Source: Parietichytrium sp. I65-24A (lineage: Eukaryota > Sar > Bigyra > Thraustochytrida > Thraustochytriidae). Taken from it: a stretch of DNA of 64,000 nt. A program made the translations under genes and the position numbers. Of this stretch, positions 50,575 through 56,920 are shown one piece after another. Each line of letters begins with the position of its first letter. Position 1 is the first letter of the stretch. The stretch covers positions 62,001 to 126,000 of the forward strand of contig BLSF01000037.1 of assembly GCA_012862575.1 (NCBI GenBank). The letters are read 5' to 3'. The notes beneath the pieces were generated by a model. It worked only from the letters and a program-made list of their open reading frames with translations. It did not search any database and was not told the DNA's origin.

Positions 50575-50846
50575 TTCCTTCTTTCCTTCTCTCTCACTTT
50601 CCTCTCGCTCCACACAACAGCGAGAGCTACCTGACCTGCGCGCACAGCAAGCGAGGCACGCACACACACACAGACACACACACACAGAGAGAGAGAGAGA
50701 AGGCGGGAGAGGGAAGGAGGTAGGTGTGGGGAGCGAGCGGGTGCGGAGCTGTTGAGTGTGGGGACAGGAGGAGGAAGGGAGGAAGGGAGGGAGGGAAGGT
50801 CGAGCGTGTTGAGGGGTGGAGTAAGTGGGTATAGGTGCGAGGAAAG
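48412..50846. other. Gene-free region, 2.4 kb
   Basis: 48520-48805 may be an alternative last exon of the RhoGEF gene. Beyond that I find no coding region or RNA gene. Near the right end: CT runs (50524-50575), CACA then GAGA (50659-50701) and GGGA repeats (50770-50800) in the leader of the next gene. Confidence 0.5.
50524..50575. repeat. (CT)n microsatellite
   Basis: Near-pure CT run upstream of the cNMP-RGS gene. Confidence 0.85.
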
Positions 50847-52574
50847 ATGGGGTGCGGGGGAAGCAAGCAGGAGGAGATGATCTCCGACGAGGAGTCGGTG
50901 TTTGACTTTCTGTCGACGAATGCGTTCTTCAAAGGGCTGAGCCCGCAGCAGATCTCGAACGCGGTGTCCAAGTTCACAGTGGTCAAGTTCAACGCCGGAG
51001 ATAAGGTCATCTCGCAGGGCGAGGTGTCGGACGCGCTGTACTGCGTCGCGCTGGGAGCCGTGGATTTCATCGCGGAGGGAGAAGATGGGTCAACCAAGAA
51101 GCTGCGGACGATGGGGCGGCATGAATTCTTTGGGGAATTTGGGCTCATTCACAGCACTCCGAGGACGGTGAGCGTGGTGGCGGTGACGGATGTGGTGCTG
51201 CTGCAGCTGACCCGCGTTGTGTACGAAAAGTTCAAGACGGATTCTTGCATGAAGAACCTGTCGCGCTGGGTGAATGCCACGGCTTCTTCCATCGTGGCGA
51301 GCGGGCTTAAGGAGATTGGCTTTTTGTCAGACCTCTCGGACAAGCAGCTCAACTTGATCGGTCGGCTCTTCAAATGTGAGGTGATTCCCCCAGGCACGAT
51401 CATTGCCAAGGAAGGCGAGATTGGCGATCGCTTTTACATCTTGTCGCGCGGGCAATTGGTGCTCACCACTCGGGACGAGCTGGGATTGTACGTTGAGCTC
51501 ACCCGCCTCCAGAGAGGGAGCACATTCGGCGAGCTTTCGTTGCTCAAGGACCAGCCTCGTAACGCGACCATCACAACGCTCGAGGAGTGCGTGCTGTTCA
51601 GCCTCGGTCGCGAGGAGTTTGGCTACTTTATGAAGTCTCTTCCAAAGCTCGGAGAAGTTATCGAACGGAGCGTAAACGAGCGTGCGACCGTGAATGTGAT
51701 TGCGGAGAAGATATCTGTGTTCAAATCACTGAGCAAGCGAAAGCAGCATCTGCTCGCAGAAGTATGCACAATGCATCGCCATGAAGCAGGGGAAGTGATC
51801 TTGAAGGAAGGTGGAATGGAGCCCCGCAAGTTCTTTATTTTGACACGTGGAAAGGTTGGCGTGTATCTCGGAAAGGAGCTGGTACGCACGCTCAATCCGG
51901 GCTCGTACTTTGGAGAGGTCGGCCTCGTGTCGGAGTCTCCGCACACTGCCACCGTCAAAGTTACGGATGATTCCGACGCATACCTACTCGAGTGCTCTCA
52001 GGACGACTTTCGCGCGCTCTTTGTAGGCGAGCCGGGAATTCTTGCCGAGATTTCTCTCAGAGTTCTGGGTACGCGCGCCCCTCTTGAGGACATTCTTCGC
52101 CATCACCTGGGCAGGGAATATTTTCAAAAGCACGTCGAAAAAGAGTTTGCAAAGGAAAATATTGAATTCTGGAACGCTGTGGAGAGGCTAGAGTCTATCA
52201 GTCGCCGCAGGGTGCGGAAATCTGTTCTCGGAGCGCTGAGCGTGAGTGCTGACACGGTCAAGTCAAAGAAGGACGAGATGCTCAAGAAAAATGCCATGGA
52301 GATTTATCGTACGTTTATTGCAGACGATGCACCGAGCCAGGTAAATCTTCCCGGCACCATTCTTGCCGAGATTAAGAAGCAGATCGAAGCAGACGAGTTT
52401 GACTTTTACATGTTCAACGACGCCAAGCACGAAATTTTTTCGCTCATGTCTAAGGACAGTTTCTCACGATTCCAAGCATCTCAGGAGTATTACAGATTCC
52501 TGACACGAATCGGAGTCTACGAGCAAAGCCGAGGACCCGCGAGCTCCACAGATTCTGAGGAGGCAGAAGAATGA
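50847..52574 (+). CDS. Triple cyclic-nucleotide-binding / RGS protein
   Basis: 575 residues from the ATG at 50847, which places MGCGGSKQ first: Gly2 and Ser6 fit N-myristoylation and Cys3 palmitoylation, so membrane attachment is likely. Three cNMP-binding domains follow: about 25-135 (FFGEFGLIHSTPRTVSV), 155-270 (TFGELSLLKDQPRNATI) and 280-400 (YFGEVGLVSESPHTATV). The first two keep the Arg that binds the cyclic phosphate; the third has His there, so it may not bind. Residues about 411-560 are an RGS domain (LEDILRHHLGREYFQKHV, KENIEFWNAVERL, FSRFQASQEYYRFL), which speeds GTP hydrolysis by G-alpha. There is no kinase or channel domain. The combination suggests cAMP or cGMP control of G-protein shut-off at a membrane. 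Intronless. Confidence 0.92.
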   Translation: MGCGGSKQEEMISDEESVFDFLSTNAFFKGLSPQQISNAVSKFTVVKFNAGDKVISQGEVSDALYCVALGAVDFIAEGEDGSTKKLRTMGRHEFFGEFGLIHSTPRTVSVVAVTDVVLLQLTRVVYEKFKTDSCMKNLSRWVNATASSIVASGLKEIGFLSDLSDKQLNLIGRLFKCEVIPPGTIIAKEGEIGDRFYILSRGQLVLTTRDELGLYVELTRLQRGSTFGELSLLKDQPRNATITTLEECVLFSLGREEFGYFMKSLPKLGEVIERSVNERATVNVIAEKISVFKSLSKRKQHLLAEVCTMHRHEAGEVILKEGGMEPRKFFILTRGKVGVYLGKELVRTLNPGSYFGEVGLVSESPHTATVKVTDDSDAYLLECSQDDFRALFVGEPGILAEISLRVLGTRAPLEDILRHHLGREYFQKHVEKEFAKENIEFWNAVERLESISRRRVRKSVLGALSVSADTVKSKKDEMLKKNAMEIYRTFIADDAPSQVNLPGTILAEIKKQIEADEFDFYMFNDAKHEIFSLMSKDSFSRFQASQEYYRFLTRIGVYEQSRGPASSTDSEEAEE

Positions 52575-53989: not shown

Positions 53990-56920
53990 ATGGCCGCCGA
54001 CTCGGACTCCGCCATGGAGGACAAAGCTGCAAAGACCGCCGGGGAAGATGAGGGAGAGAAGATGCAAGGTGTGCTCGTGTCTCAAGAGTACCTGCGCTCG
54101 ATGTTTCTGCGATCCGAGGATCCGCTCAAGTTGGTAGATGAGATTCAAAAGGACCATGCGCCCAAATTGGAAGCTTGCGAGCCAGTGATGGGGCTTCTAG
54201 AGGTGGCAGGGTTCAAGAGATTCAACTTGTACCGAGCCTTGTACGAGAACTTGAAAGACGCGCTCATCCGAGAGGTGCGGATGGCGCCACGCGAGTCGAT
54301 GTCCAGACTCTTGCTCGAATCGCTGCCATTTTTGGAGTTTCAGCCGCTCGCAAACGTTCCTATCACAATTCTTGGGGCAGTTCCAAACCCGCCAAACGCT
54401 GTATTAGAACGGCTAAGCCAAATGGACCACCAGGTGTTTGATAAGCTCCCGCGCCACGTTCGTCAGCAGGTTTGGGAGCGGTTTCCCGACACGTTCCAGG
54501 CGCACGTGGATGGACTGATTGAAAAATATTTGACCGACAGCTCTGCAGTGACTTGGGCGGAGGAAATGCACCCTGACACACAGTACCCTCCTCCTCACAA
54601 ACGTCGCCAACGCAACGCGCCGTTGCAGGAAATAGTCAACTCGGTGGGATCCTCATCGAGGCTGTACCGCTACTTTGTGGACGAGGTTCGGGAGCGTTTC
54701 GCAAAGACGCAAAATGTGCGGTACTGTGCGCTGCGTGCGGACATTTTGATGGCCATGCACGACCTGGCGGCATATTCCATCCTGAAATCCGAGCCTTGTC
54801 ACGATTTCGCCTTCCACCTTGACTCGTTCGTGAAGCAGATTTTTACATGTACAGCGCAGGGAGCAATGGACATGAAGACTGCACAGCGGGAAAAACCAGT
54901 TGTTAACGAGCTTCTGAAGTTGATGAACGCGCAGTATAAACCAGACCTTATCTCGGCCTTTGCGGGGCCGGACGAACGCGCGAGTAGCCAGGGAAGAGGA
55001 TCAATGTTCGGTGGTGCAGCCGCGGGCAGTAGCAAGAGCGGAGGCGGTGGGGGCGCAAGCCGTAATCGAAACCGTTCTTCCGCGCCCACAGAGAAGAAAA
55101 CGATGGACTTGACCACCGTGCTCTTGGACGCACTAAGGAAGATCAAAGGGCTGGACCGGGACCGTCTCTTCTGGCTTCCCGTCATCGAAAGCTATCCCCA
55201 CCTCGAGAGTCAATACCTGTCGGTGATTAAAACTCCTATGGATCTGCAAACAATAGAGGAGAAGATCCGCAAGGCCAAGTACAAAACGGTGGAGGACATG
55301 CGCTCTGATTTGCACTTGATTGCTCAAAATGCCCGGCTGTTTAATGGTGAAGGGAATCAGATTACCAAGACTGCAGAGCGCCTCATGAGAGGCAAGGCTC
55401 AGACGTACTTGAACAAGGCCAACTCCCTTCTTGAACACGCACGCATGGAGGAAAGACAGGCAGAAGAGAGGCGGAAGGCGGAACTGGAGGCGAAGAAGCA
55501 GGAGGCTGCCAACGGTGGTGACAATGAGGGCGATCAGGACACTCAAGAGCCTTCGGAGCCCGTGCTTTCCCCGGAAGAAGCGCGGAGGAAGAGAGAGGAG
55601 GAAGAGGAAGAGCAGCGCATCAAGGAGTGGAACGACGAGGTTGAGCGTCTCACCTATCAAGAGTCACGGATGCGTTACTCCCGTGTTTTGAGCGACGCCG
55701 CAATGATTTTGCACAGCGGGTTTACCGTTAATGCTCTCTCAAACACTCTCTGGTATCTCATCGGGGAGGAGATCATCAAGCGTGAAGTACTTCCTAGGGA
55801 CGCGGCCCTGACCAGGAATATTGCATGGTTGCTTGAGGTAGGAAGTCAGGCACACGAAATGACCTCTTCGGCACAGCGCGGGGGCGCAGTTACGTTAAAA
55901 GAGCTTTCGCCGCTCTTTGAGAAGCAGGTGTTGCCAGTACTTGCAAGTATGCTCCTGGACTCGTCTGACTACGGAGCTGCGGGCGGGACAGCGGAAGTGG
56001 AGCCAATGAATCCGGAGCTATTAAATTGGTGTAAAGAAGATTGGCTCACACGGAATAGCATCTTGCATCTTTTTTGCAACATGATCTGCAGGCGTGACAT
56101 GGCCATTGTAAGGCCGCTCTTTGAGCTCGTAAAGGACCTTCACAGTGCTGCGACGGACCATCCTGCGTTTCTCCATTCCTTAGTGACTAGCTTTTACATT
56201 TCGTCCACGAGCGGCAAGCAGCAGAAGGACACCGGCCCGGCATCCGGAAGCAGCAAGTATTCTTCGAAGCGCTCGCCGATGCATTCAGTCAGCGGGCCTG
56301 GGGCCCACTTGCCGTCAATCCCGGTAGAGTTTTTGGTCGAGGTCATGAAGGGGCTCTTTCTGCCTGCGGTTTTGCGCACGTCTTCTTTGAGCACTCCGCC
56401 ATTCAAAACAGAAAGACAACACTCGCATTTTAGCCGGCTGGTGAACCTGGAGATTTGCCAGCACGGCATCTCTCAGACAGAGCTGTTAAAATTTCTTCGC
56501 GCCGCAATCTTGTCCCTCGCCGGTCTAAACAAAGACGATGATCCTTTGCAGGTCTTGGGCTCACCAGAGTTGAAGGACGTCATTTACAAGCGGTACTGTG
56601 ACCAGTCCTTTTATCGCGCCCAAAAGCAATACGAGAAGGTTTTCAGAAAATTCCCGACGTTTCGAACCCAGTGCGGCTTACCGCCCCTCATGCTTGGACA
56701 GCGCGGGCCTGGGCTGCCTTCCCCTTCACCTTCGCCATCTCCAATGATCACGCCTTCGCCATCTCCGTCCCCAATCGCACCGTCACCTTATACTGTTACC
56801 TCACCAGGTGTAGACAACGTGTACACTTCGCCACAGAAGCGAGCGCTGGAGCAAGCGCTCGAGTCAGGAGGGCAAGATGTTGACGACCCTTTCAAGCGTC
56901 AGAGAGGCATGGACTCGTGA
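53990..56920 (+). CDS. NELFB: NELF-B (COBRA1) with inserted bromodomain
   Basis: 976 residues from the ATG at 53990 (upstream frame opens only at a TTG), intronless. NELF-B is a core subunit of negative elongation factor, which holds RNA polymerase II paused near promoters. Residues about 35-318 follow the N-terminal half of human NELF-B (LPRHVRQQVWERF; IVNSVGSSSRLYRYFVDEV; TQNVRYCALRADILMAMHDL; SEPCHDFAFHLDSF). Residues about 555-930 follow the C-terminal half (VLSDAAMILHSGFTVNALSN; EVLPRDAAL; NSILHLFCNMICRR). Between them sits an intact bromodomain (about 374-470: LFWLPVIESYPHLESQYL, IKTPMDLQTIEEKI, IAQNARLFN) with the acetyl-lysine Asn at 452, flanked by Gly/Ser/Arg and Glu-rich linkers. 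The C-terminus is Ser/Pro-rich. The reading frame is continuous across all parts. Confidence 0.93.
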   Translation: MAADSDSAMEDKAAKTAGEDEGEKMQGVLVSQEYLRSMFLRSEDPLKLVDEIQKDHAPKLEACEPVMGLLEVAGFKRFNLYRALYENLKDALIREVRMAPRESMSRLLLESLPFLEFQPLANVPITILGAVPNPPNAVLERLSQMDHQVFDKLPRHVRQQVWERFPDTFQAHVDGLIEKYLTDSSAVTWAEEMHPDTQYPPPHKRRQRNAPLQEIVNSVGSSSRLYRYFVDEVRERFAKTQNVRYCALRADILMAMHDLAAYSILKSEPCHDFAFHLDSFVKQIFTCTAQGAMDMKTAQREKPVVNELLKLMNAQYKPDLISAFAGPDERASSQGRGSMFGGAAAGSSKSGGGGGASRNRNRSSAPTEKKTMDLTTVLLDALRKIKGLDRDRLFWLPVIESYPHLESQYLSVIKTPMDLQTIEEKIRKAKYKTVEDMRSDLHLIAQNARLFNGEGNQITKTAERLMRGKAQTYLNKANSLLEHARMEERQAEERRKAELEAKKQEAANGGDNEGDQDTQEPSEPVLSPEEARRKREEEEEEQRIKEWNDEVERLTYQESRMRYSRVLSDAAMILHSGFTVNALSNTLWYLIGEEIIKREVLPRDAALTRNIAWLLEVGSQAHEMTSSAQRGGAVTLKELSPLFEKQVLPVLASMLLDSSDYGAAGGTAEVEPMNPELLNWCKEDWLTRNSILHLFCNMICRRDMAIVRPLFELVKDLHSAATDHPAFLHSLVTSFYISSTSGKQQKDTGPASGSSKYSSKRSPMHSVSGPGAHLPSIPVEFLVEVMKGLFLPAVLRTSSLSTPPFKTERQHSHFSRLVNLEICQHGISQTELLKFLRAAILSLAGLNKDDDPLQVLGSPELKDVIYKRYCDQSFYRAQKQYEKVFRKFPTFRTQCGLPPLMLGQRGPGLPSPSPSPSPMITPSPSPSPIAPSPYTVTSPGVDNVYTSPQKRALEQALESGGQDVDDPFKRQRGMDS

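Follow-up and report, generated by a model that had tools for sequence, protein, structure and literature searches.

We identified an open reading frame of 976 aa in Parietichytrium sp. I65-24A, whose sequence supports its assignment as the organism's NELF-B. This scaffold subunit of the negative elongation factor here carries a bromodomain, placed at the border between the N-terminal region and the hinge. NELF-B helps hold RNA polymerase at gene starts, and we know of no bromodomain in the human protein. The frame lies in a 64,000-nucleotide stretch of genomic DNA (the window), and its parts are listed below.

53990..56920 (+), whole ORF, 976 aa, NELF-B with inserted bromodomain; ATG at 53990, stop ends at 56920
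54083..54850 (+), NELF-B N-terminal half, aa 32-287, corresponding to human 13-276 (phmmer to human NELF-B; COBRA1 profile positions 4-166 at aa 121-283)
54872..54958 (+), helix after the N-terminal half, at the start of the insert, aa 295-323 (AlphaFold2 model with block pLDDT of 44-77, low to middling confidence)
54980..55105 (+), flexible linker rich in Gly and Ser, aa 331-372 (composition; pLDDT mostly <50)
55106..55447 (+), bromodomain fold, aa 373-486, with Y409, N447 and N452 (Pfam, model, PDB matches, pocket residues)
55394..55714 (+), pair of long charged helices, aa 469-511 and aa 528-575, separated by a disordered turn (AlphaFold2 model)
55679..55966 (+), recognisable part of the NELF-B C-terminal half, aa 564-659, corresponding to human 295-385 (Pfam COBRA1, phmmer)
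56717..56809 (+), Ser-Pro-rich C-terminal tail, aa 910-940 (sequence)

The Pfam scan proposed by a first-pass annotation of this DNA returned COBRA1 (PF06209) at 1e-30 (107.4 bits, two stretches) and Bromodomain (PF00439) at 8.3e-19 in the whole protein. That annotation had described the two halves of NELF-B as recognisable and in order, and its coordinates, domain order and placement of the acetyl-lysine Asn at 452 were all correct. For the whole protein, phmmer searches against the PDB ranked human NELF-B/COBRA1 (PDB 7ycx chain f, 1.7e-30) first, and it has both halves in the same order. The annotation had also named COBRA1 scores near background for both halves as an outcome that would count against it. 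That outcome did not occur: scored separately against the cut-off of 22 bits, the N-terminal half (aa 1-370) gave 87.1 bits to profile positions 4-166, while the C-terminal half (aa 560-976) gave 24.0 bits to positions 190-278, barely above the cut-off. Pairwise matches of the C-terminal half were weak (about 15 bits, E about 0.1), and all six sequences found at E up to 10 were NELF-B. Between aa 32-287 and aa 564-659, the insertion occupies in frame the site of the human 277-294 link, with 276 residues including the bromodomain compared with 18 in the human protein. The Ser-Pro-rich repeat tail is a further feature unlike human NELF-B, and may serve as a CDK substrate or as a ligand for a WW domain. 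A full-length structure prediction made without relatives was all-helical, with a mean pLDDT of 41.7, too poor to use.

The insert carries both a bromodomain profile and the corresponding helical fold, in agreement with the earlier claim of a complete bromodomain inside NELF-B. The Pfam match spans aa 381-463, scoring 67.8 bits in the whole protein and 72.6 bits alone. The PMD motif is kept, as are N452 and Y409, the acetyl-lysine Asn and the ZA-loop Tyr. The domain is complete and apparently working. In the model, the helix at aa 469-511 starts out as the final helix of the bromodomain, and the helix pair joins the bromodomain to the C-terminal half of NELF-B; Glu makes up 23 of the 80 residues in aa 481-560. 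Sequence matches in the PDB favoured PBRM1 and TAF1 BD2, and structural matches favoured BRD1/BRPF1, with identities of about 21-31% among the structural matches listed. Most of the best structural matches are known histone readers. The Parietichytrium domain shares with these acetyl-lysine bromodomains the fold, the PMD motif and the Tyr and Asn pocket residues. Its setting differs from theirs: it is embedded in the scaffold of an elongation factor, whereas they belong to a chromatin remodeller, an acetyltransferase complex or TFIID.

The assembly (42.5 Mb, 172 contigs) was searched for NELF subunits and Spt4. A single COBRA1 match (one of two candidates) makes the ORF the sole recognisable NELF-B copy. 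TH1 (NELF-C/D), NELF-A_N and Spt4 each gave one match; as in human, NELF-C/D and NELF-A_N are encoded in the same genome as NELF-B. The NELF-A_N match scored 29.8 bits (cut-off 27) and matched human NELF-A at 5.6e-5. The NELF-C/D ORF carries an N-terminal WW domain (residues 38-67; cut-off 26.9 bits) whose best PDB match was PRP40A (5.8e-5). Of the three NELF subunits identified, two therefore bear an added reader-type module, a bromodomain in NELF-B and a WW domain in NELF-C/D. BET-domain matches occurred at three places (C15, C105 and C38).

G000:C98, L002:1135-3576 (+), NELF-C/D ORF, 814 aa, WW (31.3 bits) followed by TH1 (161.5 bits)
G000:C105 (L032) and C15 (L026), BET ORFs of 639 and 518 aa, each with one bromodomain, matched over nearly its full length, and a BET domain; both domains were found by whole-genome matches for C105 and by ORF scan for C15
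G000:C38 (L033), BET ORF of 221 aa, partial bromodomain and BET domain

The first-pass annotation had suggested that bromodomain NELF-B would make a separate BRD4-like reader unnecessary. This is not supported, since separate BET proteins are encoded in the genome, two of them with a near full-length bromodomain. Like BET proteins, bromodomain NELF-B would tie acetylated chromatin to pause control; unlike them, it has no match at E up to 1 to the BET domain (PF17035), and NELF acts as a negative factor instead of recruiting P-TEFb.

Several other features of the window and assembly were recorded. One ORF in the window (50835-52571, +) combines three cyclic-nucleotide-binding stretches with an RGS domain, a pairing that to our knowledge is unusual. 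On G000:C66, a single open frame of 5583 aa (about 8.5-22.5 kb) resembles a large type I polyketide synthase gene; of its matches to PfaA, four fall in one and the same N-terminal part, the ketosynthase region, and three in a later part; no PfaA PUFA synthase scored above cut-off in the assembly. No light-harvesting protein was matched in the assembly, while the control search was positive in Synechococcus. A search for HEXIM gave no hit in the assembly, but gave none in its controls, which makes that negative uninformative. The 3' ends of 18S rRNA were found at two places: the copy on C16 (L023) reaches the contig end and has a YVDD reverse-transcriptase-like motif upstream, and that on C61 (L024) appears by eye to be a short piece of 18S surrounded by other DNA.

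Of the 33 bromodomain matches in the genome, 20 were placed in a tree to trace the origin of the NELF-B domain. None of the 17 inner branches was starred, and the NELF-B bromodomain formed a long branch, grouping weakly with two BET bromodomains (82/76); the tree therefore does not settle its source within the genome. Sequence points to PBRM1/TAF1 BD2 and structure to BRD1/BRPF1, and we make no choice between them. In viral contigs, the search for relatives of the whole protein gave one pattern stretch and no relatives, and a degenerate NELF-B motif gave no stretches; in bacterial and archaeal genomes, aa 211-290 gave 33 pattern stretches and no relatives. These results are silent on spread among eukaryotes. 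Among the titles, abstract openings and passages of open-licence texts searched, neither a bromodomain in NELF-B nor a WW domain in NELF-C is reported. The same holds for passages of PMC11482795, PMC4940160 and PMC9719515, and the main text of PMC11482795 contains none of the terms bromodomain, WW domain, oomycete or thraustochytr. On this evidence, NELF-B with an inserted bromodomain adds a variant to a known family, and automated annotations may already include it.

A gene-model or assembly artefact, whether an intron that excises the bromodomain or a false joining of two genes, is very improbable and the least likely of the rival explanations. All three parts lie in one uninterrupted frame, as the first-pass annotation had stated. 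A codon score, trained on the window's other long ORFs and read in 40-codon blocks in three frames, was best for the NELF-B frame in most blocks, across the N-terminal half and on through the bromodomain and charged arm; the latter two score as coding in the frame that both halves share. At the aa 321 block a second frame scored equally well, and in parts of the C-terminal half the score was near zero (about -0.03 to 0.19) but still best. Over the Ser-Pro tail, two of the final three blocks scored slightly higher in another frame. The modelled helix at aa 528-575 continues from the insert into the C-half motif, the window contains no Ns, and no GTRNGT donor-like site occurs in the 2931-base ORF, nor any donor/acceptor pair around the bromodomain by the same test. 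On the other side, plain dinucleotides at the bromodomain edges (14 GT, 42 AG) form 176 in-frame pairs able to remove it, which leaves room, on these data, for an unusual intron. Furthermore, the genome probably has at least one intron: the Spt4 match (L034, G000:C13:363622-363843, -) contains an internal TGA and is split across two reading frames, with GTGAGT directly after its first part.

As the best explanation overall, which we favour slightly, we propose that the bromodomain tethers NELF to acetylated promoter chromatin, raising its occupancy and delaying early elongation. In this mechanism, NELF-B, NELF-C/D and NELF-A would assemble on Pol II-DSIF, while the bromodomain, carried on the charged helical arm, would project from the presumed HEAT-repeat scaffold. 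It would bind acetyl-lysine, most likely in the histone tails of the promoter-proximal (+1) nucleosome, and this contact would lead to higher NELF occupancy and thus to an early-elongation delay at acetylated promoters. The WW domain of NELF-C/D could recognise the Pol II CTD or some other partner rich in Ser-Pro or proline, and together the two modules would make NELF a multivalent reader. In the human complex, a cross-link (K278-K125) connects the link at the insertion site with the N-terminal portion of NELF-C, according to passages of PMC4940160, and by analogy the bromodomain and WW module could therefore sit side by side. The fuller proposal, a self-contained multivalent reader with the bromodomain on acetylated nucleosomes and the WW domain on the Pol II CTD or the NELF-B Ser-Pro tail, is possible but tentative.

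Several points stand against the chromatin tether. A shared bromodomain fold does not establish function, the C-terminal half of NELF-B scores weakly, and the domain could read non-histone acetyl-lysine or be structural. A non-histone ligand, such as the acetylated Pol II CTD, DSIF or P-TEFb subunits, would make the bromodomain a switch for assembly or release; we consider this unlikely. It would fit the kept pocket residues and an insertion in a subunit that binds paused Pol II in humans, and nothing specific speaks against it; most of the best structural matches are known histone readers, but a fold does not name its ligand. Somewhat less likely still, the bromodomain might act as a structural spacer or as a module for protein-protein contacts that binds little acetyl-lysine in vivo. 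The modelled long helical arm and linker would suit such a role, and some bromodomains do bind acetyl-lysine poorly, but the pocket Asn and Tyr are kept here, unlike in degenerate bromodomains.

Passages of PMC11482795 describe NELF-B and NELF-C/D as widely distributed in eukaryotes, whereas the Pol II-binding HDAg-like domain of NELF-A was detected in animals and Capsaspora alone, and NELF-E is found strongly only in metazoans; passages of PMC4940160 note NELF-A and NELF-C homologues in Chlorella and Dictyostelium. Given this restriction of the HDAg-like domain and NELF-E, metazoan-type stable pausing may be absent in Parietichytrium. The bromodomain in NELF-B and the WW domain in NELF-C/D suggest that another lineage has equipped the core complex with targeting modules of its own. 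If multivalent reading holds, chromatin and polymerase marks would recruit NELF, an alternative route to gene-specific pausing, and N452 offers a single-residue handle on whether histone acetylation directs a pausing factor. Bromodomain NELF-B could tie polymerase pausing directly to acetylated chromatin in a single-celled eukaryote.
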